Part shown: positions 6,927 through 52,535 of the stretch, one piece after another
Position numbering within the stretch: position 1 is the first letter of the stretch
How the letters are laid out: the number at the start of each line of letters is the position of its first letter
From: an uncultured Candidatus Cenarchaeum sp.
GTDB lineage: Archaea; Thermoproteota; Nitrososphaeria; Nitrososphaerales; Nitrosopumilaceae
DNA: 64,000 bases
Direction: 5' to 3'
Assembly: GCA_958295735.1 (NCBI GenBank)
Contig: OY282369.1
Span: forward strand, 1,534,161 to 1,598,160
Made by a program: the position numbers and the translations under genes
The notes under the pieces: model-generated
The model's database searches: none
Seen by the model: only the letters and a program-made list of their open reading frames with translations
Told to the model about the DNA's origin: nothing

Positions 6927-6985
6927 GCGGCGCCGCCCCCGGCGCGGCGGCCCGCCCCGCGGCCGCGCCCGAAACCCGGGCCGCC

Positions 6986-7075
6986 GTGTAGGCTTGCGTC
7001 CAAACCGGAACCACGTAGCAACGGCAAGCCACCCCATGATCCCACGCCCAGATCGCGACGGACGCAAGTCCACAC
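6986..7075 (+). repeat. Miniature inverted-repeat element, family B copy 1
   Basis: The ends form a near-perfect 16-bp inverted repeat: GTGTAGGCTTGCGTCC at the left and GGACGCAAGTCCACAC at the right. The flanks GGGCCGCC (6978-6985) and GGGCCGCT (7076-7083) match at 7 of 8 bases, as a target duplication would. The interior shares AAACCGGAACCACG, AGCAACGGC and CAGATCGCGA with copies at 18268 and 52309. It has no coding capacity and lies between hisF and hisI. Confidence 0.85.
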
Positions 7076-7125
7076 GGGCCGCTTCCCGGCAAGCTCTATT
7101 ACGGGCTCCCGGCCCCCGCGCCCGC

Positions 7126-7476
7126 ATGCGGACGGGCGTGGACTCCATCGACTTCGAGAAGGGCGGCGGCCTGGTGCCCGTGGTGGTGCAGGACGCGTCG
7201 ACGAAGGAGGTGCTGACGCTGGCGTACGCCAGCAGGGAGTCGCTGGAGCTCACGAGGAAGACGGGCAACTCCTGGTTCTGGAGCAGGTCCAGGAACAGGC
7301 TGTGGATGAAGGGGGAGGAGTCGGGAAACACGCAGAGGGTCACGCGGATAATGGTGGACTGCGACTCGGATGCCGTGGTGTACGTGGCCGAGCCGTCGGG
7401 CCCCGCGTGCCACACGGGGGAGCGCACGTGCTTCCACAACGAGGTGGAGGTGGCGGGAGTCAGCACTCCTCGGTGA
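7126..7476 (+). CDS. hisI: Phosphoribosyl-AMP cyclohydrolase
   Basis: Opens the adenine ring of PR-AMP, third step of histidine synthesis. The family signature is visible: WSRSRNRLWMKGEESGN, VDCDSDAVVY (metal Asp residues) and PACHTGERTCF (zinc Cys). ATG 7126 gives 116 aa, the normal stand-alone length; an upstream in-frame start would read through the miniature element. A weak TATA-like patch (CTCTATTACGG) sits ~30 nt upstream, so hisI may now have its own promoter. No HisE domain is fused. It overlaps the convergent gene at 7460 tail to tail by 17 bp. Confidence 0.94.
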   Translation: MRTGVDSIDFEKGGGLVPVVVQDASTKEVLTLAYASRESLELTRKTGNSWFWSRSRNRLWMKGEESGNTQRVTRIMVDCDSDAVVYVAEPSGPACHTGERTCFHNEVEVAGVSTPR

Positions 7477-7903
7477 TGGTGTCCCCGGCCGACTCCACCC
7501 ACTCGCCGGTCACCCTGAACGGGAGGGGGGGATGCGCGCCGTCGGCGAACACGACCGCCCACACGCCGACCAGCTGCTCCGGCGTGCACACCCCGAGGGA
7601 CTCCTTGGTGTCCGGCAGGAAGTACTGGTTGAAGGACGTCTTTTCGGAGCCGTTGTAGTCGAACGACCTGTACAGGGTGCCGTTAGGCGTGAACACGCCG
7701 ATCTTCCCGGCCTCCCCCTGCCGCAGGCCGGCCACCGTCAGGTACACGCTCTCGCCCAGCCTGTGCTCGTACTGGGACACGCCGACCGGCCCCGAGTATA
7801 TCCAGGACGAGCCCGCCTCCTCGGCGGCCTCCGGCCAGGGAACGTTGGCCACCACCACCCCCGCGACTACCGCCGCGGCCGCCGCGGACGCCATGGGGAT
7901 CAT
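7460..7903 (-). CDS. Small exported protein, unknown function
   Basis: 147 aa with an N-terminal hydrophobic stretch (about residues 4-20, MASAAAAAVVAGVVVANV) that could be a signal peptide or anchor, followed by a likely beta-rich domain with YLTVAGLRQGE, GVFTPNGTLYRSFDY and CTPEQLVGVWAVV. It has two Cys (mid-domain and C-terminal). I recognise no named family; the composition resembles short exported beta-sandwich proteins of Thaumarchaeota. The 3' end overlaps hisI on the opposite strand. Confidence 0.75.
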   Translation of the reverse strand: MIPMASAAAAAVVAGVVVANVPWPEAAEEAGSSWIYSGPVGVSQYEHRLGESVYLTVAGLRQGEAGKIGVFTPNGTLYRSFDYNGSEKTSFNQYFLPDTKESLGVCTPEQLVGVWAVVFADGAHPPLPFRVTGEWVESAGDTITEEC

Positions 7904-7989
7904 CTTCGTGTTCAGCGGGCGCCCCCCCGCGCCCCGCCATACTAGCCTTCCCCAGCCCGCCCGCGCCGGGGCGGCGCCGCGAAAAACCC

Positions 7990-7999
7990 AATTAAATTA
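7990..7999 (+). promoter_or_regulatory. TATA box of the aldehyde dehydrogenase gene
   Basis: An A/T patch AATTAAATTA in otherwise GC-rich sequence, centred ~26 nt upstream of the GTG at 8020. That spacing puts the transcription start at the start codon, so the message is likely leaderless. Confidence 0.7.
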
Positions 8000-8019
8000 G
8001 GGCTGCCCGGCGGTCTTCC

Positions 8020-9414
8020 GTGGGCCAGCAGATCACCACCGTCAACCCCGCCACCGAGGAGCAGCTCGCCACGTACGACCCGATGGGCAGGGACCGCGTG
8101 CTGGGCATGGTCGACGTGGCGAAGAGGGCGTTCAACGGGTGGAAGAGGGACTACGAAAAGCGGCGCAGCTACGTGTACAACCTGGTGCAGTACATAAAGT
8201 CCAACAAGGAAAAGCTGGCGCTGACGGCCACCAGGGAGATGGGCAAGGTCCTCAAGGAGTCGATCGGCGAGGTGGAAAAGTGCGCCTGGGCGCTGGAGTT
8301 CTACGCGGACCACGCGGACAGCTTCCTGAACGAGGAGGTGCTCCACACGGACGCCCGCAAGAGCTTCCTCACGTTCGAGCCGCTGGGCGTGGTCGGCTCC
8401 ATAATGCCGTGGAACTTCCCGTACTGGCAGGCGCTGCGCTTCGCGGCCCCCTGCCTGATGGCCGGCAACACCATCGTCATGAAGCCCTCCCGCGTCACCA
8501 TGCAGTGCGGGCTGGAGATGGAAAAGGCGTTCGCCGAGTCCGGGTTCCCGGACGGGATATTCCAGACGGTGGTGGGCAGCGTCGACTCGGCCACCCACCT
8601 CATAGAGTCGGACGTGAGCGCCGTCACGTTCACCGGAAGCACCGAGGCGGGGGCGAAGGTGGCCCAGCTGGCGTCGGCCAACCTGAAAAAGTGCGTGCTC
8701 GAGCTGGGCGGCAGCGACCCGTTCATCGTGCTGGAGGATGCCAACATAGACAAGGCGGCGGACGGCGCGGTCAAGGGGCGCTTCATCAACTGCGGCCAGA
8801 GCTGCATAGCATCCAAGAGGTTCTTCGTGGCCAAGAACGTGGCGGACGAGTTCGTCGAAAAGTTCGCCAAAAAGGCGGCGCTGCTCAGGGTGGGCGACCC
8901 CGAGTCCGCCCAGACGGACGTCGGCCCCCTGTCCAGCAGGGACGGCCTGGAGTCCATATCGGGCATAGTGGACGACGCCGTCTCCAAAGGGGCGCAGGTG
9001 GTGCTGGGGGGCTCGCAGGCGTGGGACAGGGGCTACTTTTACAGCCCCACGATACTGACCGGGGTGACGCCGGACATGAGGATCGCCCGGGAGGAGACCT
9101 TCGGCCCCGTGGCTCCCATAACGGTGGTGGAGAACGAGAGCGAGGCGGTGCGCATGGCCAACGGCACCGAGTTCGGCCTGGGGGCCAGCGTGTGGTCGAC
9201 CGACTTGGCGAGGGCGGAGAGGCTGTCGCGCCGCGTCGAGTCGGGCATCGTGAGCGTGAACAACGTGGTGGTCTCCGACCCGCGCATCCCGTTCGGCGGG
9301 ATAAAGCACAGCGGGTTCGGCAGGGAGCTCTCGCGGTACGGCATGCTGGAGTTCGTCAACATAAAGTCCGTCCGGTTCTACGACAGCCTGGTGCACCACC
9401 ACTACGTCGAGTAA
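8020..9414 (+). CDS. NAD(P)-dependent aldehyde dehydrogenase, succinate-semialdehyde type
   Basis: 464 aa. MPWNFPYWQ holds the oxyanion-hole Asn, FTGSTEAG the cofactor loop, LELGGSDPF the general-base Glu and NCGQSCIASKR the nucleophilic Cys. It most resembles GabD/SSADH-type enzymes by these motifs and its short N-terminus. Ammonia-oxidising archaea handle succinic semialdehyde in the 3HP/4HB cycle, so a role near that cycle is possible, but the substrate cannot be read from sequence. GTG 8020 is fixed by the TATA spacing. Confidence 0.9.
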   Translation: MGQQITTVNPATEEQLATYDPMGRDRVLGMVDVAKRAFNGWKRDYEKRRSYVYNLVQYIKSNKEKLALTATREMGKVLKESIGEVEKCAWALEFYADHADSFLNEEVLHTDARKSFLTFEPLGVVGSIMPWNFPYWQALRFAAPCLMAGNTIVMKPSRVTMQCGLEMEKAFAESGFPDGIFQTVVGSVDSATHLIESDVSAVTFTGSTEAGAKVAQLASANLKKCVLELGGSDPFIVLEDANIDKAADGAVKGRFINCGQSCIASKRFFVAKNVADEFVEKFAKKAALLRVGDPESAQTDVGPLSSRDGLESISGIVDDAVSKGAQVVLGGSQAWDRGYFYSPTILTGVTPDMRIAREETFGPVAPITVVENESEAVRMANGTEFGLGASVWSTDLARAERLSRRVESGIVSVNNVVVSDPRIPFGGIKHSGFGRELSRYGMLEFVNIKSVRFYDSLVHHHYVE

Positions 9415-10192
9415 GGGCGGGGCCGCCGGCGGGCCGGGGCCTTCCACGCCGCGCGGCCGCGGCGAGAATGGAAGACGGGGCGAGGGTTCCTCCCGAACGC
9501 CGGCATGGGATGCCCGGAGCGATGCCGCGGGGGGCGGGGGGAGAGACGGACCCCGGGGAGGGCGACGGGCCGCACGCGCGCGTGCGGGGGGAGGAGTGCG
9601 GGACGGCGGCCGGGATCGGGGGGAGCCCCGACCGCGACAAGCCCACTATGTGCAAGCGGCTGATGCGCGCCCGGGCGGGGGGCGCGGGCGCGAGGCGCGG
9701 GCGCGGGGGGCGCGGGCGGGAGTGCCTGCCGGACGCGGACCGGCGCGGGCAACTCGCGGCGGATCTCGAGGGCCGCGGGCAGCGCGGCTTCGAGTCAGCC
9801 CCGCGGATCTCCGTCCTGGCCCGCGCGCGCAAAGAAAAACTCCGGCGTGGAGCACGGCAAGCCGGGGGTGTTTTCCCTCCCCACCGGGCTGCCCCGCGCG
9901 GGGGGGAAATAGCCCCCGGGCGGCCTCGGAAAAAAGCGGGACTGGGCGGGGGAGGGATCCCGGCGGCCCGCGGGGGAAAATGCCGGGCGGGGCTGCGCGG
10001 CGGCGGCGGGCCGTCCCGGCGCGGCCGGGCCGCCGCGTCCCCCCCCGCCCTGCGCGGCCGGGGAGGCGCGCCTCCCGGCCCCGCGTCCGAAAGGCCCGAT
10101 CCGCCCGCGCTGCCGCGCCCGGCCCTGCGCGGCCGCCCGCCAAGCGGCCGCCGGGCATCCGGGCCGAAGGCCCCGGCGCGGCCGGCCCCGCG
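9415..10192. other. GC-rich intergenic stretch, no gene seen
   Basis: About 780 bp at very high GC. Open frames exist on both strands only because stop codons are rare at this composition; none shows motifs, a promoter or sensible amino-acid composition (mostly Arg/Gly/Ala/Pro). I see no family A or B repeat and no RNA structure I can name. Confidence 0.5.
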
Positions 10193-10804
10193 TCAGCCGC
10201 GGCCGGCCCGCGGGCCTGGATCGCGCGGCCGGGGCGCCGCCGCGGCGTCCCGGATCTTCTTCACCAGCAGGAACCTCGGCCTGGCGGGATCGATGTCCCC
10301 GTGCATCTCCACGTTGCTGATTATCTTCACCCTCCGCCGCGACCACGCCTCGTACATGTTCCTTCCCCTGCCGTCCTCCCCGCCGGCCTCGAGCAGCTCG
10401 CAGCTTGCCGCGTACCTGCCGGCCACCCTGAGCACCTCGTCGATGCCCGCCTCCACCCCGCGGTCGTCGAGGTGGTTGAAGAACCCGTGGGTGAACACCA
10501 TGTCCACGGACGAGTCCCCGTACGGCATGCGCGTTGCGGCGCCCGCCGCGACCAGGGCCGCCGGCCCCAGCCTCGCCGCCGCGACGCGGGCTATCGCGGG
10601 ATTGTAGTCCAGCCCGACCGCCCTGGCCCGCCCCGCGAGCAGCCTCAGGTCGTTCCCCGCGTTGCAGCCCACCTCCAGGACGCCGCGGCATCTGAGCGAA
10701 ACGGCCAGGTCCCTGACGAACTCGGCGAACGCCCTGTTGTAGTTCGAGTCGGCCTCGCCGGCGTGGCGCTCCCAGCGCGAGTCGTCCGTGTGCCGGCGCC
10801 TCCC
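10193..10804 (-). CDS. Class I SAM-dependent methyltransferase, start codon not found
   Basis: The SAM-binding motif I reads LEVGCNAGND, followed by VGLDYNPAIARVAA (motif II) and a VFTHGFFNHLDD segment, so the Rossmann fold is clear; the substrate is unknown. The only standard start in frame is the GTG at 10672, in the middle of motif I, which would remove strand 1. Coding-like sequence continues upstream (DDSRWERHAGEADSNYNRAF and FAEFVRDLAVSL), but no ATG, GTG or TTG occurs before the frame meets the 60-aa gene at 10806. An unusual start, a sequencing indel or a frameshift fusion are the options; the 10804 boundary is a placeholder. Confidence 0.65.
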   Translation of the reverse strand, partial: GRRRHTDDSRWERHAGEADSNYNRAFAEFVRDLAVSLRCRGVLEVGCNAGNDLRLLAGRARAVGLDYNPAIARVAAARLGPAALVAAGAATRMPYGDSSVDMVFTHGFFNHLDDRGVEAGIDEVLRVAGRYAASCELLEAGGEDGRGRNMYEAWSRRRVKIISNVEMHGDIDPARPRFLLVKKIRDAAAAPRPRDPGPRAGRG

Positions 10805-10805
10805 C

Positions 10806-10988
10806 CTACGCGCCGCCGCCGCCGCGGTGGGCGCAGCCGCACTTCACCATCACGGTTCCGAAGGAGCAGTCGTGGGGCCCCTCGGAGCGCCCCTCGGTGG
10901 GCACCTCCACCATGCACTCGGAGCAGCGGCCCCTCCTGCAGAACCAGCAGGCGCCTTCCGACTCCTCCCCCGCGGCCACGGCGCTCAC
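10806..10988 (-). CDS. 60-aa cysteine-rich protein, possible metal-binding
   Basis: Starts at GTG 10988, overlapping the ilvE stop by GTGA, so probably translated with ilvE. Six Cys occur in 60 residues, in ACWFCRRGRCSECMVEVP and later CSF / KCGCAHRG, which could bind zinc or an Fe-S cluster. It has no hydrophobic segment. I do not recognise the family. Its end abuts the methyltransferase, suggesting an ilvE-small protein-methyltransferase operon. Confidence 0.7.
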   Translation of the reverse strand: MSAVAAGEESEGACWFCRRGRCSECMVEVPTEGRSEGPHDCSFGTVMVKCGCAHRGGGGA

Positions 10989-11908
10989 CGCGCGACCGGC
11001 GTGAGCCACGAGGCGAACCTCTCGTCCCGGCCGGTGGCCGCGCCGATGAACGACTTTTGCAGGGCGCGGGTCGCCTTGCCGGGGCGCCCGCCCGATATTC
11101 TCACGCGGTCTATCCTGGACACCGCCTTTACCTCGGCGGCCGTCCCCACCATGAAGACCTCGTCGGCCGCGTACAGGTCCTCCCTGTCCAGATCGGCCTC
11201 GGCCACGCTGCCCCCGTCCGCCTCTATTATCCGCATGACGCTGTCCCTGGTTATGCCCTCGAGTATGCCCGCGCTGGCCGGCGGCGTGGTCATGGCGCCG
11301 CCCCTCACCGCGAATATGTTCTCGGCGCTGCCCTCCGCCACCTTGCCCGCCGAGTTGAGCATTATGGCCTCGTCGTATCCCGCCTCCAGCGCCTCCGTCC
11401 TGGCCAGGGCCGCGTTGGCGTAGTTCGCGGATGCCTTGGCCCTGGCCGGCTGCGACCTCCCGTCGATCCTCGTCCAGCTCGACACCTTGCAGCTGGCCCC
11501 GGTGACCCTGCCCGCCTTCGACTCCCCCATCTTCCACTCCCAGCAGGCTATGGCGACGTCGACGCAGTTCCTCGGCGGGGTCAGCCCCATCTGCCCGTAC
11601 CCGTAGTACGCTATGGGCCGTATGTAGCACTCCTTGAGGCCGCTCGCCCTCACGGTGTCGGCCACCGCGTCCGCGATCTGCCTCCTCGTGTACGGGATCC
11701 GCATGGAGTACATGCCGGCCGACCTGAACAGGCGGTCCACGTGGTCGCCGAGGCGGAAGATCGACGGGCCCGTCCCCCGGGCGTTGTAGCAGCGCAGCCC
11801 CTCGAACACGGCCGTCGCGTAGTGCAGGGAGTGGGTCATCACGTGCACCTTTGCATCCCCGGACGGCACGAGCCTGCCGTTCATCCATATCCTGCCGCCC
11901 TCCTTCAT
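10985..11908 (-). CDS. ilvE: Branched-chain amino acid aminotransferase
   Basis: Fold type IV PLP enzyme, 307 aa, catalysing the last transamination of Ile/Leu/Val synthesis. Motifs are HSLHYATAVFEGLRCYN, the PLP-lysine segment KASANYANAALA, GYDEAIMLN, EGSAENIFAV and GITRDSVMRI. ATG 11908 is chosen because a TATA-like TCTAAATTA lies ~26 nt upstream; the longer frame runs through family A repeat sequence. A second paralogue lies at 60659-61588. Confidence 0.93.
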   Translation of the reverse strand: MKEGGRIWMNGRLVPSGDAKVHVMTHSLHYATAVFEGLRCYNARGTGPSIFRLGDHVDRLFRSAGMYSMRIPYTRRQIADAVADTVRASGLKECYIRPIAYYGYGQMGLTPPRNCVDVAIACWEWKMGESKAGRVTGASCKVSSWTRIDGRSQPARAKASANYANAALARTEALEAGYDEAIMLNSAGKVAEGSAENIFAVRGGAMTTPPASAGILEGITRDSVMRIIEADGGSVAEADLDREDLYAADEVFMVGTAAEVKAVSRIDRVRISGGRPGKATRALQKSFIGAATGRDERFASWLTPVAR

Positions 11909-12043: not shown

Positions 12044-12112
12044 CCATGCATGAGGTCACGCACCCGCCAGCCGCAGGCGTGAAAAAGACTTCGCTGATCC
12101 AGATTCGCGCAT
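12044..12112 (-). repeat. REP-like repeat family A, copy 1
   Basis: Read on the minus strand it has GCGCGAATCTGGATCAGCG, then CTTTTTCACGCCTGCGGC and an arm ending GTGACCTCATGC. It matches copies at 13874 and 30215 over ~65 bp. It lies between ilvE and the aspartate kinase terminator. Confidence 0.8.
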
Positions 12113-12125
12113 GGGGCGTGGGGGC

Positions 12126-12230
12126 GCTGACCTTATACCGATCTATATAGCACAAGCCTAAATAGCCATGCCGCGAGATACAAGCAGCGTGTTTTGGGTA
12201 ACGCCGGGGCTAACTCTAGATAAGGCCCAA
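12126..12230. other. AT-richer unexplained segment with TATA-like sites
   Basis: About 100 bp of clearly lower GC than its surroundings. It holds CTATATAG (12143-12150) and CCTAAATAG (12157-12165), which look like archaeal promoter elements, but no ORF starts at the expected distance on either strand. A small RNA or a remnant of lost genes is possible; I see no tRNA fold. Confidence 0.35.
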
Positions 12231-12276: not shown

Positions 12277-12278
12277 CA

Positions 12279-13855: not shown

Positions 13856-13873
13856 GAACAAAGGCCGCCGGCC

Positions 13874-18246: not shown

Positions 18247-18267
18247 GCCGGCGCCGGAAGCCGAAAG

Positions 18268-18359
18268 GTGTAGACTTACGTCCGTCGTGATCTGGGCGTG
18301 AGATCGCGGGGTGGCCTGCCGTTGCTAGGCGTGGTTTCGGTTTGGACGTAAGCCTGCGC
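18268..18359 (-). repeat. Miniature inverted-repeat element, family B copy 2
   Basis: 92 bp flanked by a perfect 8-bp direct repeat GCCGAAAG (18260-18267 and 18360-18367). The ends GTGTAGACTTACGTCC and GGACGTAAGCCTGCGC are inverted with a few mismatches. Its reverse complement aligns with copies 1 and 3 over the whole length, including AACCACGCCTAGCAACGGC. Confidence 0.88.
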
Positions 18360-18562
18360 GCCGAAAGCGCGCCGCCGCGCCCGGCAGCGGGGAGGCGCCT
18401 GCCGCCGTCCGCGCTCGCGCGGCCGACGATCCGCCCCGCGCGGGCGATCGTCGGGGCCACGCGGCGGGGCGGAGGCGCCGTTTCCGGCCGGGCGAGGCGG
18501 CCCATTCTCGGCCCCCGGCGCGCCCGCCGCCCGGGATGCCCCGGGACGGCGGCCGCGCGCGG

Positions 18563-28030: not shown

Positions 28031-28107
28031 GCGTCCGCGCGCGGCAGGCGGGGAATATAACGTGACGTGTAGCGCCGGCGTACGATGCCGGCGACCCGCG
28101 CTCCGCA

Positions 28108-28173
28108 CGCACGAATACGGATCAACAAAAGCGCGTTCGCGCCAGTGACCAGCGGGCGGCCGACCTCGTACGC
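28108..28173 (+). repeat. REP-like repeat family A, copy 5
   Basis: Degenerate left end (GCACGAATACGGATCAACA), intact TTCGCGCC, then CAGCGGGCGGCCGACCTCG and TACGC, the same 3' arm as copy 6. It lies between two minus-strand exported-protein genes. Confidence 0.7.
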
Positions 28174-29872: not shown

Positions 29873-30214
29873 AATAACATATCCTTGCGGACGGAATGCA
29901 AAAGCCGACTCGGACGCGTCGCATTCCTCCGGCCGCAAACCCGCAGGCGCGCGCCCTGGGGCCGAGGCCCGGGGCGGCCGCGGCCTTGGCGCGGGGCGAC
30001 TTCCTGCCGCGCGGCGAGCTTTTGCTCCCGACGGCGCCGGCGGTCACGCGCGGCCGCGCTTTGCGTGAGGCGCGGCCAGCCGGCGCCGCATGCGGCCGGA
30101 CGGCCGGCGCTGCCCGCACGGCGCAGGCGCGCCTGCCGCCGCCCCGCCATGGAGGAACCGCGCGGCAGCGGGACTCATTGGCGCGCAAGTATGTGGTCAG
30201 CAACCCCCGCTCCC

Positions 30215-30281
30215 CAGGCGCGAATCCGGATCAGCGAAGGCGTTTCCGCGCCTGCGGCCAGCAGGTACGTGACCTCGTACG
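30215..30281 (+). repeat. REP-like repeat family A, copy 6
   Basis: Full copy: GGCGCGAATCCGGATCAGCG, AAGGCGTTTCCGCGCCTGCG, GCCAGCAGGTACGTGACCTC, GTACGCG. It ends ~14 bp before the TATA-like box of the next gene. Confidence 0.82.
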
Positions 30282-31639: not shown

Positions 31640-31900
31640 GCGCGCCGCCGGAGGCCCCCGATTTAAGCCAGCCGGCCCCGGCTCTCCCGCCTGCCGCGCC
31701 GCAGGATCGCCGCGCCTGCCGCGCGGGGCGTTCGCCTGGCCGCATTCGCGGCCGCCGGCCGCGGGAGCTTCGCGGCCGCGGCCGCGCCGGCCGCGCGTTG
31801 CCCCGAATGTGGCGCGCCCGGCCGCGGGCCCTGCCTGTCGCGGCCGGGCGCGCCGCCGCCCCGCCCCCGTACACACTTACCTCCCCCCCCCCTCCCGGCG

Positions 31901-32034
31901 CCCCCCGCGCGCCCGGGCTGCCCCGATCGGCGCGCGCCGCGCGATCGCGGCCGGAGCGGGGATCCTTCGGCGGGCGGGCGCCGCCCCCCGCGCGCCCGGG
32001 CTGCCCCGATCGGCGCGCGCCGCGCGATCGCGGC
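31901..32034. repeat. 51-bp direct repeat inside the IS end
   Basis: An identical 51-bp block starting CCCCCCGCGCGCCCGGGCTG occurs at 31901-31951 and 31984-32034, between the left terminal repeat and the transposase stop. It may be a subterminal transposase-binding repeat or a recent duplication. Confidence 0.85.
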
Positions 32035-32143
32035 AGGGTTCGGGGCATTTTCGGCGCGCGGCCGCCCCGGTACGGCGCTCCGTCCCGATGCCTGACGCGG
32101 GCTGACGCCGCCCGCGCGCGCCCGGCAGATCCGCTGGGGCCGG

Positions 32144-33874
32144 TCAGGCGGACGCCGCTGCCGGAGCCGGCGCCCGCCCCGCCGCGGAGCCGGGCGGGCG
32201 CACCAGCCCGGATGCGGGGTCATCGAAGACGCACCAGTCGGGCCCGGCCCACGGGCCGGGGTCGAACATTTTCCAGTCGCGATTGCGGGCGATCTCGGTG
32301 AAGGCCCTGCCCGGGAACATGCCGTTCATGCGGGCGGTGCCCCCGATCGTGACCAGCTCGGAGAACGTCTTGCGCCCCTCCGGCGTGGAGATCTTGTGGT
32401 GCGCATTGCGCTGCGTCACTATGAGGTCGCGTATGGCGAGCTCGGCGGGGTTGTTGTGGGGCGGCATGCCGCGGAATCCCATGAACGTGAGCACGTGCGG
32501 CTCGGCGTTGGCGAGGTGCGTCTTCAGCTTGCCGTCGGGGTACGCCGACACGGCGTCGTGGAACTCCTTGGCCAGGTACGTCACGGTGAACGGCGCCAGC
32601 GTCTTGATGCCGTGTATCTTGTGGTAGTACCCCTGCATCCAGTCGTGCCTCGCCTCGTCCCCCGGGTCGCCGTCCACGGCGACGGCCTCGCCCTTGGCGA
32701 GCAGGTGCCTGCAGCATCTCTGCAGATGCTGGAACCACGCGCGGTACGCCGGCAGCCCGTCGGCCACCACCGCCCTGCGGGACAGCCAGCCGAAGTGCTC
32801 CCTCAGGACCGCCGCCCCCCGGGTGGGCGCGAAGTGCACCCACACGGCGTTGCCCACGACGGCCACCCAGACGTAGCCGGTCTTGCCCAGCACGCCGATC
32901 TTGAACCCGGTCTCGTCCATGTGCACGAACATGCTCTCGCGGAACGCCCACTTGATGTCCTCCAGCTGCTTCTTTGACGCGCCCGCCATGGCCCTCCTGG
33001 CCTTCGCCACGGCCGCCTCCGAGATGCGGAAGTAGAACGTGGACTCGATAAAGCCGGCGATCCTCGCGTCCGTGCAGCCCATCTCGAACAGCGCCATTAT
33101 GAGGCCGAGCGCCCTCGGGCCGCACGAGGTGCCCTTCGGAAACGGCGCCTGGGCCTCGTAGTACTTCTCGCACTTGCCGCACCAGCCCGTCTCCACCTCG
33201 ATCATCGCGGTGACCACGCGCCAGAACTGATCGAAGTCGTTGACCAGCTTTCGCCACCTGTCGAACTTCTCCAGGGGGCCGCAGCACACGGGGCACGTCA
33301 GGATCCCGCACTTCATGGTGAACTCGGGCTTGTTGCAGTGCGAGACGCCCTTGTGCCCTTGGGGCGGGCCCATCTTGCGCGGGGCGCCGCCGTCCGGAGC
33401 GGGCTTGCCGTCGGATCCGGCCCCGTCGCTCCCCTTGTAGCCCCGCTCCTTGCGCCAGGCGTTCCGCCGGGGGCCGTACGTGGTGAGGGACGACGAGGGC
33501 GCGTTCGGGCCGTCGCACACGGCAAGCCTGACCGCCTGCTCGGCGGCCTTGGCCTTCAGCCCGGAGTTCTCGGCTTCCAGCCCGGCGATCTTTTCCAACG
33601 CGGCCGCCAGTTCCTTGCGCAGCAGCGCCTGCTCCGTGGACTTGGCCTTCAGCATCGCGATCTCGGCCGCCCGCTCCGCGGCCTCGGCTTCCAGCCCGGC
33701 GATCTTTTCGAGCGAGGCCGCAAGTTCCTTGCGCAGCAGCGCCTGCTCCGTGGACTTGGCCTTCAGCATCGCGATCTCGGCCGCCCGCTCCGCGGCCTCG
33801 GCTTCCAGCCCGGCGATCTTTTCCAACGCGGCCGCCAGTTCCTTGCGCAGCAGCGCCACCCCGGATTCCGCCAT
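32144..33874 (-). CDS. IS66-family transposase
   Basis: 576 aa. N-terminal coiled coil (~residues 5-105) built from a 38-residue repeat (LLRKELAA, LEKIAGLEAEAAERAAEIAM) present twice plus a partial copy, 114 bp apart in DNA. Then a zinc-binding region (LTCPVCCGPLEKF, GWCGKCEKYYEA) and the DDE core: FVHMDETGFKIG, VVADGLPAYRAWF and NNPAELAIRDLIVTQRNAHH. All three acidic residues are present, so the enzyme looks intact. ATG 33874 matches the start of the remnant copy and follows TATA-like TGTATAATTG by ~25 nt. Confidence 0.93.
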   Translation of the reverse strand: MAESGVALLRKELAAALEKIAGLEAEAAERAAEIAMLKAKSTEQALLRKELAASLEKIAGLEAEAAERAAEIAMLKAKSTEQALLRKELAAALEKIAGLEAENSGLKAKAAEQAVRLAVCDGPNAPSSSLTTYGPRRNAWRKERGYKGSDGAGSDGKPAPDGGAPRKMGPPQGHKGVSHCNKPEFTMKCGILTCPVCCGPLEKFDRWRKLVNDFDQFWRVVTAMIEVETGWCGKCEKYYEAQAPFPKGTSCGPRALGLIMALFEMGCTDARIAGFIESTFYFRISEAAVAKARRAMAGASKKQLEDIKWAFRESMFVHMDETGFKIGVLGKTGYVWVAVVGNAVWVHFAPTRGAAVLREHFGWLSRRAVVADGLPAYRAWFQHLQRCCRHLLAKGEAVAVDGDPGDEARHDWMQGYYHKIHGIKTLAPFTVTYLAKEFHDAVSAYPDGKLKTHLANAEPHVLTFMGFRGMPPHNNPAELAIRDLIVTQRNAHHKISTPEGRKTFSELVTIGGTARMNGMFPGRAFTEIARNRDWKMFDPGPWAGPDWCVFDDPASGLVRPPGSAAGRAPAPAAASA

Positions 33875-34015
33875 GCCGGCAGGCCCAAACTCGCCACAAT
33901 TATACAAATCGACCCTTAGGCCAGCCTAAGCTTGCGCGGCGCGCGGGCCCGCCCGGGCGGCCAAGTCGCGGCGGGAGGGGGGGGGGAGGTAAGTGTGTAC
34001 CCGCCCCCCACCGCA

Positions 34016-47400: not shown

Positions 47401-47636
47401 TCCCCCACCGGCCCGCCGGTGTCGCGCAGGTCCGGATCCCTCACCACCACCTCCACGACCATCGCCCCCGCAAAGTGCCCCGCGGCCGCCCGGCCGTCGG
47501 GGCCCGCCGCGGACACGTACAGGTACGGCGATCCGCTGCCGCCCTGCTGGCCCGCGGCGGCGGGGGCCGCCAGCGCGGCCGCGGCGACCGCGGCCAGGAC
47601 GGCGGCCGCGTAAAGCGCCGCTCTCCCCGCCCGCAT
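44454..47636 (-). CDS. Large exported surface protein, S-layer-like modules
   Basis: 1060 aa. Signal peptide (ALYAAAVLAAVAAAALAAPA), then beta-sandwich modules marked by the repeated phrase ETG-x-x-TGVF at ~362, ~646 and ~810 and by VTLRDPDLNTDGG / VRDPDLRDTGG-type segments. The last ~90 residues carry two copies of the helical motif VPEWVRQVAMLRG and VPQWVKRLYAWWGDG, common at the C-termini of thaumarchaeal surface proteins. An S-layer or S-layer-associated role is inferred; no transmembrane anchor is seen. ATG 47636 follows TATA-like CATATTAG by ~25 nt. Confidence 0.8.
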   Translation of the reverse strand: MRAGRAALYAAAVLAAVAAAALAAPAAAGQQGGSGSPYLYVSAAGPDGRAAAGHFAGAMVVEVVVRDPDLRDTGGPVGEPDVTVGGSPLRMVQGADGAWYAYFADADAALYADGLAAAGGGGPDFGRFCSPSTPASALGASFGGADAVAVPRGGGGGTDGPGRPAACSGPAGGGWGAALNSVVRRPAAMNENPAVPPGQIGLDPGAWPAVQLFKGGDAAVRYERGGGGGGEARLEYGEMPEPALALDRERYPAGAEVFVSVADAQLGLDPTDEDRWTFGTGPGGPAAFYMAFGGRGSPDLAPHLGRLGFEDGEGLLEVLDGEAGRPSILGFKPNANQPSASLSAGAARYSDLVTLAETGRNTGVFESHDGAKSSTVHVLPGAPRGNAAAFRYGESTLSAVTGPSGASVSLGAAAAPAIAGGAAAVPPGTPVRVELRDADLDLNAAKRDVLDSSDPAVKSVPVVRIGSPLTLAGAAGVEIVRDGEAAARAAHSAGADGRLTVADPGPAPYAMVVDAGYSAADLRAVLADAGSGTNWLNYDLRAALGSAGADLPASSVSVAFGSPGDPGAVVLLDGIPGDGRGLARIPDPPAYAAGSGAAFIVVRLGGDGEGTAAGGAMPVVLDVASFGAGSWGSNAAYRVEMEETGRSTGVFAGTVERAVMGPGDAADPAFVASLRTHGDEVRFAAGAGAGSDEITVSYADAAGGAGERGPVAAGLASGTHSGAVSLGSPSYRFGQPVTVTLRDPDLNTDGGTVESYAASEATDAVGAPGGGILLEVTIKGHRYRGCTTADGVSHGGLGSTGFALVETGPATGVFEGSFKMPSRICSEDGTRLVSPAGGRVDAKYYDFLDGSGNPSAVSASAGGRQPAQPGQPGRQPEYPLRLDAPGGLASPAPGATAEVRVSGRAGGGPAAPGGAPPVAISVAGPAGPPVLLEAVPDAAGRFEAVVVLRPGAAPGEYRVDASRGGERAGSASFELAPVPVPEWVRQVAMLRGEHVSDAEVRASLRDMAGAGLLPGSGGEGAGASVPQWVKRLYAWWGDGLLGDSEMLGALRYLIADAGAL

Positions 47637-47664
47637 TCTACGCGTGCAGCGCGCCGCTCTAATA

Positions 47665-48149
47665 TGTGGTGTCTGTTGCGTGCGCCGCCGCCAAGAACGC
47701 GCGCCGCGGGCGGGCGGGGGGCAGAAACGGCAGGCGCCCGCAGCCCGCAGCCGCGCATCCAAAATTGCCGCATCGTCCGGCACGGAGCAGGCGCCGGTTG
47801 GAGTTCGCGGCCTGCGCGTCCCCGCCGATCGGCGCGGCAGGAGCATCCGTTGCCACGGAATGCGGGAATGGCGGGAGATGCCGACGGCGGCGGCGCGCCT
47901 CATGCGGCAGTTCGCATCGCGGCCGCTGGCGCGGATCGTCGTTCCCAAAGCGTCCAGGCATTGGGCCGCAGCCGCCGCAGTGGGTCTGGTTTTGGAATGC
48001 GGAAAGGCTTGGTGCACAAGCGCGAATGTGCCTAGGCTGGACAGGACAGAATGCGCTACGAACCTGCCGCTCGGGGCCAAGGGCCGGCGTGGTTCACGCG
48101 GCAAGCCGCGGCACACGGCTGAGCGGCCGGCGCCGGGACGCGCCGGCGC
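47665..48149. other. Intergenic stretch at the island border, no gene seen
   Basis: About 480 bp in which GC falls gradually towards the low-GC HD gene. No convincing ORF, RNA or repeat. The border with the HD gene has no visible direct repeat or attachment site. Confidence 0.45.
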
Positions 48150-49460
48150 CTAGTCTTGGTACGAGATGATCCTCACTGGTACTCGCAGCCTCTCGGCGAT
48201 CTTGTCTGCTATTTTTCTCCTCGTGCCGGAGTCTCCGGGCCCGTACACCAGATACCTGATCACCAAGGACTTCGCAGTGATCGGGGAATACTGGGACAGG
48301 CTCATCACATCCTCTTTTCTTATGACCTGGATAGAATCGCCGCCGTACAGCTTTATGCCGATCTCGGCCTTTAAGAATATCACTTGATGCGCTTCCAAGC
48401 CGAGCTCGCCTGCGACCTCGCGGGCCATGCTGTCAAAGTCATCCTGCTCCATTTTCACGAGTTTCCTGTCGACGCCCGCATTCCTCATGAGTTCCATTGA
48501 CGTAAAGTCGCAGGCACGCTTCAGTAGCCGCCGGTGCCTGACGTCTTGTAGGATCTTCTTGCTCATGCTGTCTGAATTGTGGCGCATGATCATCTCATAG
48601 ATCGAACTGTCGTCCAAACTCTTGTAGAATTTCAGAAATTCACTGTCGTCGCCGTCCTGTCCGCGCTTCAAGAAGTTCTCGTCTATGACTCCCTCGTCAA
48701 GCGCCGCGTTGAGCGCCTGTAGGAACATCTTGTCCGCCACCAATCTGGCGTGGTGGTGGTATACCTGCACATGCAGGAGGTGCCTCCCGAGGCGGTAGCC
48801 CTCCACCGCGTCCTTGCCCCTGATGTCGACGCAGACGGTATCGTCCTCCGGGTTTTTTCGTATGGTGTGCAGTATGCGGTCCAGGTCGAATCTACCATAG
48901 GATACTCCAATGTGGTGAGAGTCGCGCAACATGTAGTCGAGCTTGTCCGCATCTAGGCTGCCGGACACAATGCTGGAAGCGAGAGCGTCTTCCTCGGGCG
49001 CGGACTTGCCCAAGATCTCTGCTACTCGATGCCTCCTCTCCCCCAGCACGCGCGCTACATCTTCGTCTTCCTCTATCATCACGCGCGATATGGCCTCGTG
49101 CGAGCTATCGATGCCGTGATTGCGCTTGTCTACCACTCCTTCGAAGAGGTGGGAAAACGGTCCGTGTCCTATGTCGTGCAGCAGCGCAGCCAGCCGCACT
49201 AACTCCTTTGCCTCTTTGTCCATGTTCAACTCGTCGCACATGCGACTTGCCACATCCATGCACCCAAGCGAGTGTTCGAAGCGCGTGTGGACGGCGCTCG
49301 GGTATGCGATGAATGTGTGGGCCAGCTGCTTTATTCTGTGCAGCCGCCGGAACGCTGGCGTGTCGATCAGCCGTGTTTCAATTTCAGACAGGCCGATGAA
49401 CCCGTACAACGGATCGCGTATGGCCTTGTGCCGAAAGTGGCGCTGGCCGTCACTTGTCAA
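48150..49460 (-). CDS. HD-domain dNTP triphosphohydrolase-like protein (YwfO/SAMHD1-type)
   Basis: 436 aa. The metal site is complete: HTRFEHSLG (first His), AALLHDIGHGPFSHLFE (HD plus His) and SLDADKLDYMLRDS (last Asp). The start DPLYGFIGLSEIETRLIDTP and a C-terminal ~150-residue region match the YwfO-like branch related to SAMHD1 and other dNTPases. It may hydrolyse dNTPs in the cytoplasm. Its GC and codon use are well below the neighbours, suggesting acquisition. TTG 49460 overlaps the YwgA-like gene by 11 bp, so the two form one transcript. Confidence 0.88.
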   Translation of the reverse strand: MTSDGQRHFRHKAIRDPLYGFIGLSEIETRLIDTPAFRRLHRIKQLAHTFIAYPSAVHTRFEHSLGCMDVASRMCDELNMDKEAKELVRLAALLHDIGHGPFSHLFEGVVDKRNHGIDSSHEAISRVMIEEDEDVARVLGERRHRVAEILGKSAPEEDALASSIVSGSLDADKLDYMLRDSHHIGVSYGRFDLDRILHTIRKNPEDDTVCVDIRGKDAVEGYRLGRHLLHVQVYHHHARLVADKMFLQALNAALDEGVIDENFLKRGQDGDDSEFLKFYKSLDDSSIYEMIMRHNSDSMSKKILQDVRHRRLLKRACDFTSMELMRNAGVDRKLVKMEQDDFDSMAREVAGELGLEAHQVIFLKAEIGIKLYGGDSIQVIRKEDVMSLSQYSPITAKSLVIRYLVYGPGDSGTRRKIADKIAERLRVPVRIISYQD

Positions 49461-49989
49461 GGCGCAGTTTTTTGAGCAGGTCTATGCCGGTCCTAGCATC
49501 CTTGTCGGATATGCGCCAGTTCAGGTCCTTGCCGCCGCTCCTTACGTTGTCTACCGTGTATTCGCCCCCGCCTTGTTTGGCCACTATGTAGTGGCATTTT
49601 GCGGCATACGAGAGCGGCGCCGGCTTTAGCTCGCAGAACGCCTTGCATGTTCTCACCGTCTCATCAATCTGTTTGTTCTCTTCTGGAAACTCACTTGACG
49701 CTGCCTCAGCGTACTTACTGCCTTCTTCCGTCATCTCGTACGCGTAGCCCTCGTGGAATCTTGGATGCGCGATCTCGTTTACGAATGCGAACGCGGACAG
49801 GTCGTACAGGGCGGATGCCACCACCCTGCTGAACGGCCCGTAATAGTGGTGCGTGTAATGTGGGGAGAACTCTTTTATGTTGATGGTGTGAAAGTACACC
49901 AGTTTTTGTACAGTCACCCTGCCGTTCAAGGTGCCCCCGCAACTGCTGATGGTGAGGAGTATAGCATCGTGGGAGTCAAAACCCAGCAT
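49450..49989 (-). CDS. YwgA-like protein
   Basis: About 179 aa. ILLTISSCGGTLNGRVTVQK, LVYFHTINIKEFSPHYTHHY and YGPFSRVVASALYDLSAF give the winged-helix-like pattern of the YwgA family (unknown function), often beside YwfO-type HD genes in bacteria. ATG 49989 is preferred: TATA-like TTTAAATT lies ~25 nt upstream, inside the first codons of the longer frame (ATG 50028). Low GC like its partner. A regulator or partner of the HD enzyme is inferred. Confidence 0.75.
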   Translation of the reverse strand: MLGFDSHDAILLTISSCGGTLNGRVTVQKLVYFHTINIKEFSPHYTHHYYGPFSRVVASALYDLSAFAFVNEIAHPRFHEGYAYEMTEEGSKYAEAASSEFPEENKQIDETVRTCKAFCELKPAPLSYAAKCHYIVAKQGGGEYTVDNVRSGGKDLNWRISDKDARTGIDLLKKLRLDK

Positions 49990-50166
49990 TTCAGCGATAG
50001 AGATATGTTCCAATTTAAACCATTGCATTCCACCAGCGGTACACACTTACCTTCCCCCCGCTGCGCCTTGTGCCGCCCTAGCGGGCCTGCACGCCGCGTA
50101 GTCTTAGCTTGGCCTAAGTAACCCTAGGTTGATTGGTGCTAGTACGGCGGATTTGCTCCTGCCGGC

Positions 50167-51057
50167 ATGGCGGAATCGGAGACGGCGCCGCTGTGTAAAG
50201 AACTGGTGGCCGCGTTCGAAAAGATCGCGGCGCTGGAAGCCGGGACCGCGGAGCGGGATTCCGGGACCGCGTGGCTGGAAGCCAAGATCGCGGCGCTGGA
50301 AGCCAAGCTTGCCGTGTGCGGCGGCCCGAACGCACCCTCGTTGACCCTCTCCACGTACAACCCACGGCGGAATGCCTAGTGCAAGCAGGGGGGCTACCTG
50401 GGAGCGACAGGGCCGGATCTGACGGCGAGCCCGCGCCCCCGGGCAGGGCAACGCCTCGCGCAAGATGGGCCCGCTCGCAGGGCACAAGGGTTGCTGTGGG
50501 CGCTGACGCGGCTGGCCGGCAGTCCCCGCCGTGCGCATCATCAATGAGGCCGCGCGCCGCGTTGCTGTGGGCGCTGACGCGGCTGGCCGGCAGTCCGCTC
50601 GAGATATGGTCGGTGGCGGCGCTTGCGGCGGAGTTGCTGTGGGCGCTGACGCGGCTGGCCGGCGGTCAGGCCGCGCAAGATGGGCCCGCTCGCAGGGCAC
50701 AAGGTCGTCTCGCACCGCAACAAGCTCTAGTTCACCAGGGCGTGCGGGATCCTGGCGTGCCACGGATGCTACGGCCCGCTGGAGAAGATCACTAGCTGGC
50801 AAAAACTGGTCAACGACTTCGATCGGAACTGGCGCGTGGTCGACGCGATGATCGAGGTGGAAAAGGACTGGTGCTACAAGTGCGATGAGTTCTCCGAGGC
50901 CCGGGCGCCGTTTCCTAAGAGCACATCGTTCGACCCCAAGTCGATCTGTCTCATCATTGAGCTCTTCTTGCTGGGCGGCACGGACGCGAGGATCGCGCGC
51001 TTTTTCGAGGCCATGTACCACTTCTGCGTTTCGGAGGCGGCCATAGCAACCTGGAGG
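50167..51057 (+). pseudogene. Decayed IS66-family transposase
   Basis: Starts like the intact transposase (MAESETAPLCKELVAAFEKI) but has a TAG after ~70 codons, a frame-disrupting internal insertion (50490-50704) and a truncated end. The recognisable parts are KLAVCGGPNAPSLTLSTYNP early and KLVNDFDRNWRVVDAMIEVE, WCYKCDEFSEARAPFPKSTS, GGTDARIARFFEAMYHFCVS later. The catalytic DDE region is absent. Only one coiled-coil unit is present against two to three in the intact gene. Confidence 0.88.
50458..50704 (+). repeat. Tandem repeat insertion within the transposase remnant
   Basis: A ~36-bp block GTTGCTGTGGGCGCTGACGC / GGCTGGCCGGC occurs at 50490, 50561 and 50633 (71-72 bp apart). The array is bracketed by a 32-bp direct repeat containing GCAAGATGGGCCCGCTCGCA at 50458-50489 and ~50673-50704. 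The bracket matches transposase sequence; the array does not. Confidence 0.8.
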
Positions 51058-51173
51058 GAGCGCGGCGCGGCCGGCAGGCCGCGGGCGCGCCGCCCCGATC
51101 CCGCAGCGGCGCCGCGCGCCCGCCCCCGAGGGGCGGCCGAACGAATTTTAACGCGGCGCCTCATCCTCCCCCC

Positions 51174-51257
51174 GCAGAGGTCGCCTAGCCTGGTAGGGCG
51201 CGGGCCTTGAGAGCCTGTGCGAGAGATCGCGCGGGGGTTCGAATCCCCCCCTCTGCG
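51174..51257 (+). tRNA. tRNA-Ser (anticodon TGA)
   Basis: Acceptor GCAGAGG/CCTCTGC, anticodon stem CGGGC/GCCTG with loop CTTGAGA (anticodon TGA), a long variable arm (TGCGAGAGATCGCG) as expected for serine, T arm GGGGG-TTCGAAT-CCCCC, discriminator G. CCA not encoded. TATA-like GAATTTTAACG ~25-30 nt upstream. Confidence 0.93.
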
Positions 51258-51293
51258 CTCGCGCGGCCGGCGCCGAAACCGGCGCCGGCCGCG

Positions 51294-52259
51294 CTATCTG
51301 GATGCGCCCAGCCGCCCGAGCTCGGCCAGCATGGCCGTGAGCTGTATCTCGGGGCTGGACCCCGCCAGGATCCTGTAGTCGTACTTGGCCATGGCCTCCA
51401 GAACCTCCCCCATGTTGGGCGGCGCCGCCCTGTACACGGCCCCGCAGGCGTACTTTAGGAAGTCCGACTCGGACATGCCGTACACCTTTACGAGCTCCAC
51501 CATGCCCTCCCTGGCCTTGGCCAGGTTCCCGCCCATGGCCGCCTTGACCACTCCTTCCACGCTGTCGGCGCGCGCCAGGCCGGCCGCCGCCCTGATGTTG
51601 TCGGCCGTCACCTTGCCGGAACCGGTGGCCGCCGCCGCCTGCAGTATGTTGATGGCGTGCCTCAGGTCGCCCTCGGCCTGGTCGTAGATCTCCTCCAGGC
51701 TCTTCCTGTCCGCGGCCACCTTCTCGGCCTTGGCCAGCCGCCCCAGGTGGGCGACGAGATCCCCCTTTGGTATGGCGGTGAACTTGAACACGGCGCACCT
51801 GCTCTGGATGGGATCTATTATCTTGGATATGTTGTTGGCCACCAGTATGAACCTGCACACCCTGGCGGCGTCCTCTATGGTGCGGCGCAGGGCCGTCTGG
51901 GCGTCCGCGGTCATCTCGTCCGCCTCGTCGAGTATGATTATCTTGAACGGCACGTCCGCGAACGCCGCGTAGTTGGAGAAGCGCTTGACCTTGTCGCGCA
52001 CCATGCCTATGCCGCGCTCGTCAGAGGCGTTGAGCTCCAGCAGGTGGTCCCTCATGTGGTCCCCGAGCACCTGCCGCGCTATGCACAGCGCGGTGGTGGT
52101 CTTGCCCACCCCCGCCGACCCGGAGAACATCAGGTGCGGCATCTCGGCCGGCCTCTCCAGCAGTGCCCGTATGCTACCTATCGCCTCTGCCTGCCCCACC
52201 ACCTCGGACAGTTTCGCGGGCCTGTGCTTTTCCACCCACATGACGCCGCCTCCGGCCAT
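51294..52259 (-). CDS. rfcS: Replication factor C small subunit
   Basis: 321 aa clamp-loader ATPase that loads PCNA. WVEKHRPAKLSEVVGQ, FSGSAGVGKTTTALC (Walker A), LDEADEMTADAQTALRRTIE (Walker B/DEAD) and SRCAVFKF (Arg-finger Ser-Arg-Cys motif) are all present, followed by the C-terminal collar domain. ATG 52259 is ~25 nt after TATA-like TTTATTTAG. It converges on tRNA-Ser with a 36-bp gap. Confidence 0.96.
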   Translation of the reverse strand: MAGGGVMWVEKHRPAKLSEVVGQAEAIGSIRALLERPAEMPHLMFSGSAGVGKTTTALCIARQVLGDHMRDHLLELNASDERGIGMVRDKVKRFSNYAAFADVPFKIIILDEADEMTADAQTALRRTIEDAARVCRFILVANNISKIIDPIQSRCAVFKFTAIPKGDLVAHLGRLAKAEKVAADRKSLEEIYDQAEGDLRHAINILQAAAATGSGKVTADNIRAAAGLARADSVEGVVKAAMGGNLAKAREGMVELVKVYGMSESDFLKYACGAVYRAAPPNMGEVLEAMAKYDYRILAGSSPEIQLTAMLAELGRLGASR

Positions 52260-52308
52260 GCGCGCCGTCGGCGGCGGCCGCTAAATAAACCACGGCATGG
52301 GAGCGCGG

Positions 52309-52400
52309 GTGTAGGCTTGCGTCCAAACCGGAACCACGCCTAGCAACGGCGGACCACTCCCCGACCCCGCGCCTAGATCGCGATGGATGTGGGCCTACAC
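52309..52400 (+). repeat. Miniature inverted-repeat element, family B copy 3
   Basis: 92 bp from GTGTAGGCTTGCGTCC to GGATGTGGGCCTACAC. Flanks GAGCGCGG (52301-52308) and GGGCGCGG (52401-52408) match at 7 of 8. The interior agrees with copy 2 reversed (AACCACGCCTAGCAACGGC). It lies upstream of rfcS, just beyond its promoter. Confidence 0.87.
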
Positions 52401-52535
52401 GGGCGCGGCGCGGGCCCGGGCCCGGGGAGCGGCCCGTTGCCGGGCCCGGGCTCGGCTTGCCGGAGCCTGCCCGCTCCCGGCCGTCCGGCTCGCTGCCCGC
52501 CAGATTTTATATCCGGGCCGCCCCGCGCGCGCCCG

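Follow-up and report, generated by a model that had tools for sequence, protein, structure and literature searches.

The analysed window, a 64,000-nucleotide stretch of archaeal genome, holds three copies of a short repeat (family B), which raises the questions of whether the repeat is a transposon, what moves it and what decides where it lands. By coxI homology (93% at best) the host belongs to the Nitrosopumilaceae, an ammonia-oxidiser family; it represents a high-GC lineage, with a genome of 71% GC. An earlier note on this DNA had placed the three copies correctly in position and strand (Table 1), and the sequence agrees with its description of 16-bp inverted ends and of flanks that match in all eight bases at copy 2 and in seven of eight at copies 1 and 3. 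The window copies are 90-92 bp long and non-coding, being too short for a gene.

Table 1. Coordinates of the repeats, their target duplications and neighbouring predicted features, numbered from the first base of the window
Feature	Position	Strand	Details
Copy 1 left target duplication	6978..6985		GGGCCGCC; 7/8 against 7076-7083
MITE copy 1, family B	6986..7075	+	90 bp
Copy 1 right target duplication	7076..7083		GGGCCGCT
Putative BRE-like AA (7091-7092) and TATA-like TCTATTA (7095-7101)	7091..7101	+	Just past copy 1; from sequence and the offset rule
Predicted gene	7126..7476	+	ATG 51 bp from copy 1 edge
Family A MITE copy	12048..12138	+	Duplication 7/8; TATA heptamer on one side
Copy 2 target duplication, first side	18260..18267		GCCGAAAG on + strand; 8/8
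MITE copy 2, family B	18268..18359	-	92 bp; convergent genes on either side; exception, no promoter
Copy 2 target duplication, second side	18360..18367		GCCGAAAG on + strand; 8/8
Family A MITE copy	28080..28171	-	Perfect duplication GCGCCGGC; one-sided TATA heptamer; start codon at 50 bp
Family A MITE copy	30189..30278	-	Duplication 7/8; TATA heptamer on one side
IS66-like element C9 of group C	31869..34000	-	Ends GTACACACTTACCTCC; perfect 8-bp duplication CCGCCCCC; one-sided TATA heptamer; nearest start codon at 61 bp
Replication factor C (RFC) subunit gene	51294..52259	-	ATG 50 bp from copy 3 edge
RFC gene TATA box	52282..52289	-	TTTATTTA, 22 bases before ATG
Copy 3 left target duplication	52301..52308		GAGCGCGG; 7/8
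MITE copy 3, family B	52309..52400	+	92 bp
Copy 3 right target duplication	52401..52408		GGGCGCGG

The repeat is far more frequent than chance predicts, with five end motifs in the window (at most three mismatches) against 0.65 expected, and 101 genome-wide matches to a 19-nt core at the same tolerance against one for a reversed-pattern control. A profile with a threshold of at least 40 bits gave 122 matches in the DNA sampled, or 121 once overlaps were merged; two copies with internal expansions count as two matches each, and we estimate about 120 elements. The count of flanking duplications that the earlier note had proposed, made here on the sampled DNA, found duplications of eight of eight bases at 51 of the 122 matches and of seven of eight at a further 11, hence at least seven of eight at 62. 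Pairing flanks across different copies yielded 0.1 perfect duplications on average and at most two in 200 shuffles, and the identity between left and right flanks peaked at lag 8 only (114 matches). Family B is therefore a true MITE that transposed with 8-bp target duplications, a strongly supported conclusion that upholds the note's reading. If the repeat were instead a regulatory or RNA element that the host retains for its function, the fixed positions before many core genes described below would be explained, yet perfect 8-bp duplications and an IS with the same ends would not. The repeat also had no match in 60 relatives, the same genus included, its low-scoring copies decay GC-ward, and Rfam returned no match at the three window copies, all of which make such an element extremely unlikely.

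As the note had anticipated, the likely mobiliser lies elsewhere: full-length IS carrying family B ends were found outside the window. These IS66-like elements of 2.3-2.4 kb (group A) have ends identical to those of family B over 17 bp on the left and 20 bp on the right, and their ORF is intact in two of four copies. The transposase of this likely mobiliser matches PF03050 (E=1e-20; 74.8 bits, cut-off 23.1), but it scores 131 bits against the NCBIfam IS66 equivalog, under its cut-off of 180. Judged from these sequences, the mobiliser of family B is likely itself an IS66-family element, and group A transposases would mobilise family B in trans. The group A IS copies seen have only 17-20 terminal bp in common with family B, so we rejected a simple internal deletion of them as the origin of its interior. 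The note's statement that the ends of the window's own IS66-like element (C9) do not match was only partly right, because 12 of 16 terminal bases are common when counted by eye, although that element is indeed only a distant relative with a transposase 31% identical.

Among the IS66-like copies, 8-bp duplications were perfect at A2, B1 and 10 of 11 group C copies and matched in seven of eight bases at A1, whereas flanks of A3, A4, B2, B3, B4 and C10 had no matching 8-bp duplication; groups A and B together thus have perfect duplications in only two of eight IS. A scan of the contig collection for related loci with the transposase as query found no relative. The elements share with the IS66 family and with IS-derived MITEs an IS66-type DDE transposase, an 8-bp duplication, terminal inverted repeats and a small, non-coding relative that carries the same ends. 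They differ from the IS66 family in the single large transposase ORF seen here, in ends that begin GTG or GTA and in a tight, promoter-anchored choice of target. Canonical IS66 ends begin GTAA, and single-ORF IS66 relatives exist (ISBst12 type).

The main point, absent from the earlier note, is that family B occupies a fixed position relative to predicted promoters. Of the 52 duplication-flanked solitary sites, 40 have a TATA (A/T) heptamer at one fixed offset from the element, compared to 5.2% of random positions and 8.8% of random intergenic positions (binomial p ~5e-32 versus intergenic); it is missing at the other 12, window copy 2 among them. The heptamer is present on one side only in 39 of the 40 and on both sides in one, and by the stronger signal it lies to the left of the element in 20 and to the right in 20. 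Element orientation is random and the promoter side is fixed. With promoters and start codons predicted by a home-made codon model trained on seven genes, 37 of the 40 sites have a gene start no more than 150 bp away on the TATA side and three have one on the far side, all of these in addition to one on the TATA side; three sites have neither. The nearest start codon is 48-52 bp away in 31 of the 62 sites (p ~2e-40) and outside that range in the other half, and random intergenic positions have one at 46-52 bp in 1.4% of cases. At 163 genes without an element, TATA and a weaker BRE-like AA, two to three bases before TATA, occur at the same positions, and 15 of 20 downstream ORFs tested (from 39 listed) match Pfam families.

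These positions suggest that most intact family B copies sit just upstream of the BRE and TATA of predicted leaderless genes and leave the promoter intact, with the duplicated 8 bp in most cases about 41-48 bases before the putative start codon and directly upstream of BRE and TATA. Insertion between TATA and the transcription start was considered and dropped, as the gene model puts the gene on the TATA side. In the comparison with relatives that the note had proposed, a same-genus orthologue of the RFC gene has an identical TATA box and spacing and no element, but an exact empty site was not found in that genome, where the flanks fail to align base by base. Orthologues of the genes flanking copy 2 overlap end to end there. 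That most intact insertions lie at one promoter spot suggests targeting through the transcription machinery or a promoter signal.

The heptamer is the strongest signal and is rare at random, as expected if the transposase alone, with no help from TBP or TFB, had a preference for short stretches of bendable, A/T-rich DNA at 10-11 bp from where it cuts; promoters would then be hit because TATA boxes are among the few A/T-rich stretches at 71% GC. We regard this as possible but rather doubtful. The heptamer is near-symmetric, yet genes start on the TATA side, as counted above, which places the element on the upstream side of the promoter, and the BRE-position AA occurs, more weakly, also at promoters that carry no element. 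Moreover, the same position is used in the same-genus genome, where two IS66 copies lie at the promoter position and the fetched locus is 57% GC (two of four PF03050 matches were examined, the other two being fragments or broken).

The rule extends, with exceptions, to IS66-like groups A-C, to a second MITE family and to these two same-genus copies. The heptamer accompanies 10 of 11 group C copies examined, a sample that leaves out C11 (87.7% identical) and further listed copies; the one without it, C6, apparently lies within a coding stretch, as judged by eye. It accompanies five of eight IS in groups A and B, on both sides in one of them, and 14 of 27 MITEs of the second family (family A) follow the rule. 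In a more distant relative, one IS66 copy has the same position among seven places scanned. That scan for ends and duplications covered 10 locus ids at seven distinct places (G010, G016, G101, G220, G015, G136 and G118) and gave a clear fit at G010, a rough fit at G016 and an ambiguous picture at G101; G220 offered only an implausible end pair, and G015, G136 and G118 had no ends. As a within-family negative control, group D IS66 elements, a separate branch in the transposase tree, were at TATA in zero of six copies, despite perfect 8-bp duplications in all six with recognised ends (six of the eight taken from 11 PF03050 matches listed for the genome) and transposases 99-100% identical. For a control from outside IS66 we rejected the TATAGCGCCGTC element, which gave too few end matches (10), and chose PF01609 IS instead. 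Of these, one in 16 copies with recognised ends (four groups, from 30 loci) was at the IS66 gap, with a weak, diffuse A/T-heptamer excess at gaps 8-16 that reached at most five of 16.

These groups also bear on whether insertion was random, with selection sparing only those copies that lie immediately upstream of promoters. No predicted gene contains any of the 40 TATA sites, and insertions further downstream would split promoter from gene, as such selection would have it. However, selection is unlikely to fix spacing within a few bp, and group C insertions, which must be recent given the 99.0-99.8% identity to C1 among the copies compared, are already in place in 10 of 11 cases; group D, with transposases just as uniform, is not at TATA. 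We therefore consider selection alone very unlikely.

Later insertions go into the same 8 bp as earlier ones, and elements stack. The younger member is nearer the promoter in 18 of 23 pairs and the opposite holds in five. Tandem duplication of one element together with its target duplication, in place of repeated insertion, probably did occur in a stack at 928 kb, because two neighbours there are 98.9% identical and neither is as close to anything else. As a general origin of stacks it is highly improbable: at 911 kb, one copy matches another, 486 kb distant, at 100% identity and its own neighbour at only 89%, stacks intermix families A, B and IS, and same-family neighbours have opposite orientation in four of nine cases.

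Together our results point to a model that we consider probable: family B, a non-autonomous MITE, would be moved in trans by the IS66-like DDE transposases of group A, the elements whose ends it copies, and the transposase of this IS66 clade would be steered to the upstream boundary of the archaeal core promoter. Guidance would most likely come from a touch on promoter-bound TBP/TFB, or alternatively from direct reading of BRE/TATA. Insertion duplicates 8 bp, in most intact sites those directly upstream of the predicted BRE/TATA, and later insertions take the same 8 bp again, building a stack that is usually younger towards the promoter. Such a safe-harbour strategy would spare the neighbouring gene. 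For the more specific proposal that TBP and TFB target this archaeal clade and its MITEs, with the transposition complex docking from upstream on TBP and TFB bound at the promoter, we see even chances.

Eukaryotic retrotransposons are known to choose integration targets through complexes that contain TBP. Archaeal TBP is a homologue of TBP, and archaeal TFB of TFIIB/Brf1, so that the two would offer a simple two-factor system for testing directly how a pre-initiation complex is read by a transposase. Searches of open-access literature listings yielded no mention of promoter-anchored targeting for IS66 and no report of TBP-complex-targeted integration in archaea. Yeast Ty3 uses TFIIIB to integrate 1-4 bp upstream of the points where tRNA transcription starts, and in vitro its integrase, TBP and Brf1 are required and Bdp1 enhances the reaction (PMC5911963). 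The family B case resembles Ty3 in its fixed distance from (here predicted) promoters, but Ty3 is a retrotransposon at Pol III genes whereas these are archaeal DNA transposons and MITEs upstream of protein-gene TATA boxes, with a guiding factor that is proposed. Dictyostelium TRE5 has a distance nearly equal to that found here; it is a non-LTR retrotransposon inserted in one orientation, unlike the random orientation and 8-bp duplication of family B. Group D of the same genome is alike in transposase family and duplications and unlike in its targets. If TBP/TFB targeting is correct, prokaryotes would have in these elements a counterpart to Ty3 and TRE5, and each promoter would act as a time-ordered recorder of insertions. 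For a genome that lacks transcription data, the elements would also show where promoters and leaderless start codons lie. Stacks allow relative dating of insertions, and the roughly 120 decaying copies keep a record of GC-ward substitution bias in a high-GC lineage.

The three family B copies described in the window by an earlier note, with inverted ends and 8-bp flanking repeats, were all found as claimed, and the family proved to be dispersed through the host genome (a single contig of 3,166,131 bp). Homology of coxI identifies the host as a Nitrosopumilaceae archaeon. A 19-base core with up to 3 mismatches gave 101 matches compared to 1 for the reversed control, and a family profile applied to DNA fetched around these matches gave 130 hits, 122 at 40 bits or more (121 once overlaps are merged, two expanded copies counting as two hits each); copies were picked by internal sequence, and the sample spans part of the genome. 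With a fixed boundary, the flanking 8-mers proposed as target duplications are identical in 51 of the 122 hits and share 7 of 8 bases in 11, against a mean of 0.1 matches for shuffled pairing. Duplications were kept in 42/60 high-scoring versus 20/62 low-scoring hits, as expected under decay. Judged by these flanks, family B insertion is staggered by 8 bp. DNA searches found the element in none of 60 relatives, the same-genus genome among them.

The same note had placed the mobilising transposase elsewhere than in the window's IS66-like element. Searching for the ends without the MITE left interior yielded inverted pairs 2.3-2.4 kb apart, four of which were fetched (A1-A4); A1 has the same termini as the MITE, with 17 bp identical at one end and 20 bp at the other. 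An intact open frame of ~690 codons is present in A1 and A2 (98.4% identical); the other two, A3 and A4, are either broken or divergent. The frame encodes an IS66-type transposase (PF03050, E=1e-20) with 65 matches in the host genome, which fall into groups A (the elements just described), B and C. By sequence comparison the ends are common to MITE and IS, and we infer that family B is mobilised in trans by the group A transposase. Group C copies are 99.0-99.8% identical to copy C1, except C11 (87.7%), and the IS66 family profile detected a further host group, D. In an unrooted transposase tree, a support-1.0 branch parts group D and relatives' copies G101, G220, G015 and G136 from groups A, B and C, G010, G016, G118 and the same-genus copies.

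When 52 solitary family B sites whose duplications match in 7 or 8 of the 8 bases were aligned, an A/T-rich, TATA-like box emerged 11-17 bp beyond the 8-bp target. Scored at this fixed offset, with nothing fitted, as a heptamer containing six or more A/T, it is present at 40 of the 52. The left side carries the stronger match in 20 of these and the right side in the other 20, and 1 of the 40 has the heptamer on both sides; 5.2% of random positions in the same DNA and 8.8% of intergenic ones have such a heptamer. The offset profile is sharp (33/52 and 32/52 at the two central offsets), falling to 3/52 or fewer at -23 and farther and at -11 and nearer.

Seven window genes with family matches served to train the codon-usage model that supplied gene starts, and promoters and start codons are predictions throughout. 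At 37 of the 40 sites a predicted gene start, directed away from the element, lies no more than 150 bp off on the TATA side (3 of these have one on the far side too); the other 3 have none. The TATA-side start is 46-54 bp from the element at 27/40 sites, and the nearest start codon lies at 48-52 bp in 31 of 62 family B sites, compared to a start codon at 46-52 bp for 1.4% of random intergenic positions. Aligning 39 such genes at the start codon places the 8-bp target roughly between -48 and -41, AA at -34/-33 and the TATA box at -30 to -24; 163 element-free genes have TATA at the same positions and a weaker A preference. The predicted positions match the known archaeal layout of BRE plus TATA in which transcripts begin at the start codon or close to it. 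Pfam domains were found in 15 of 20 downstream ORFs tested out of 39, among them citrate synthase, ketol-acid reductoisomerase, S-adenosylhomocysteine hydrolase, anthranilate synthase, dihydroorotate dehydrogenase and replication factor C (RFC). Window copies 1 (51 bp) and 3 (50 bp) fit the spacing, and copy 2, flanked by convergent genes, departs from the promoter rule. In the same-genus genome, the promoter of RFC shows an identical TTTATTTAG box at identical spacing to the ATG, without the element. At most intact sites, position and side are fixed relative to the predicted promoter and gene.

Several related groups occupy a similar position, though not in every copy. Among 11 group C copies examined, 10 are flanked by perfect duplications and 10 carry a one-sided heptamer; for groups A and B together the counts are 2/8 and 5/8 (one of the latter on both sides), and a start codon lies 47-50 bp away in 7/19 IS of the three groups, these samples being partial. 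The family A MITE has the heptamer at the same offset in 14 of 27 distinct sites, on both sides in none, and a start codon 47-51 bp away in 10/23; its duplication count is inflated because element boundaries were optimised. Both same-genus IS66 copies examined (2 of 4 matches) have an 8-bp duplication, one after a 1-bp shift of the right end, with TATA at the same offset by eye and ATG at 51 bp (a TTG also present at 42) and 59 bp. In a more distant relative, an element whose transposase is 38% identical (L256) has TTATAAA at the same offset. Group D has the heptamer in 0/6 copies, although perfect duplications are found in 6/6 (Fisher p=0.0006 against group C for TATA), and 16 PF01609 IS of four groups have it at the IS66 gap in 1/16, with a weak, diffuse excess closer to the element; both controls are small. 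Selection alone is an unlikely source of the promoter-edge positions, as it would hardly yield such precision of spacing and leaves the group D pattern unexplained.

We propose that the transposase recognises promoter-bound TBP/TFB, although it could possibly read BRE and TATA directly. As described in one paper (PMC5911963), Ty3 inserts 1-4 bp upstream of tRNA starts via TFIIIB, and TRE5 40-54 bp upstream, its ORF1 interacting with TBP, Brf1 and Bdp1. IS66/MITE targeting in the host would work alike, whereas Ty3 and TRE5 are retrotransposons and the elements here an IS66-type DNA transposon and its MITEs. Open-access literature searches returned nothing on point for MITEs in Cenarchaeum or Thaumarchaeota, IS66 target choice or TATA-guided transposition in archaea.

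With a target set by distance from the promoter, every further insertion would restore the same 8 bp at that distance, and stacks with repeated 8 bp would form. Elements are often adjacent, separated by an identical or similar 8-bp spacer. Stack order was assessed from 20 chains in which A and B elements lie 5-11 bp apart; the promoter side was clear in 17, and 3 were left out. Age was ranked by score within each family, and the promoter-proximal member is younger in 18 of 23 adjacent pairs (p=0.011) and in 7/9 same-family pairs. Tandem duplication probably produced two of three copies at 928 kb, but it cannot explain stacks that combine different families or a 911-kb copy that is identical to a distant copy yet only 89% identical to its neighbour. 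The stacks show that the insertion site is reused.

Elements and stacks in the host genome (kb and G000:C1 positions are genome coordinates)
Feature	Position	Description
Family A MITE	genome-wide; window 12048-12138, 28080-28171, 30189-30278	~92 bp; ends GTATGAGGTCA
Group A		ends matching family B MITE; reference transposase
Group B		transposase 43-55% identical to group A; ends GTGTGGACTCACGTCC
Group C		transposase about 31% identical to group A; ends GTACACACTTACCTCC; includes the window's IS66-like element
Clearest stack	910796-911186	A, A, B, B; CCGGAGGC in each gap; ages in order
Mixed stack	2909 kb	MITE and group B IS
Mixed stacks	1634 kb and 23 kb	group C IS and MITE
Mixed stack	694-698 kb	group C and group B IS
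Expanded family B copies	G000:C1:143568-143756, 316801-316924	internal expansion of a ~33 bp unit, with the element's repeated CACGCCTAG-like stretch at its bounds
Repeated ~1 kb units	G000:C1:2295500-2299600	each a repetitive charged ORF and MITE copy; in two, a stretch resembling a transposase follows (PF01609 matched weakly at 2297727)
Small element	G000:C1:758430-758520	group-B-like left end (GTGTGGAC...ACTTGCC); ACCTGCTG spacer in common with adjoining family B copy
PF01609 IS	L282-L297, L292-L304	ends CAGTTAACGCAAAAG and TAGTCTATCTCATAA; tend to be near TATA boxes at other, looser spacings

Copies of families A and B are stacked together at shared 8-bp sites. Family A may be moved by a fourth IS66 lineage, since an IS66 of the relative G016 has ends (GTATGAGGTCAGC) nearly equal to its own. 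Copies at 208, 698, 817 and 2753 kb have one flank in common and the other different, the latter an outer element with TATAGCGCCGTCAAAAAGT ends, which suggests recombination between MITE copies.

Excerpts of a study of sponge Thaumarchaeota (PMC7848895) describe symbionts with a wider variety of transposases and elevated GC, and in these excerpts there is no mention of MITEs or targets. GC of the window is ~71%. Across the inverted ends of 121 copies, decay runs strongly toward GC: when young copies and the group A IS are taken to carry the ancestral ends, A/T became G/C in 619/1919 cells and G/C became A/T in 39/1929. The decaying MITE ends offer a natural record of the bias behind this genome's high GC.
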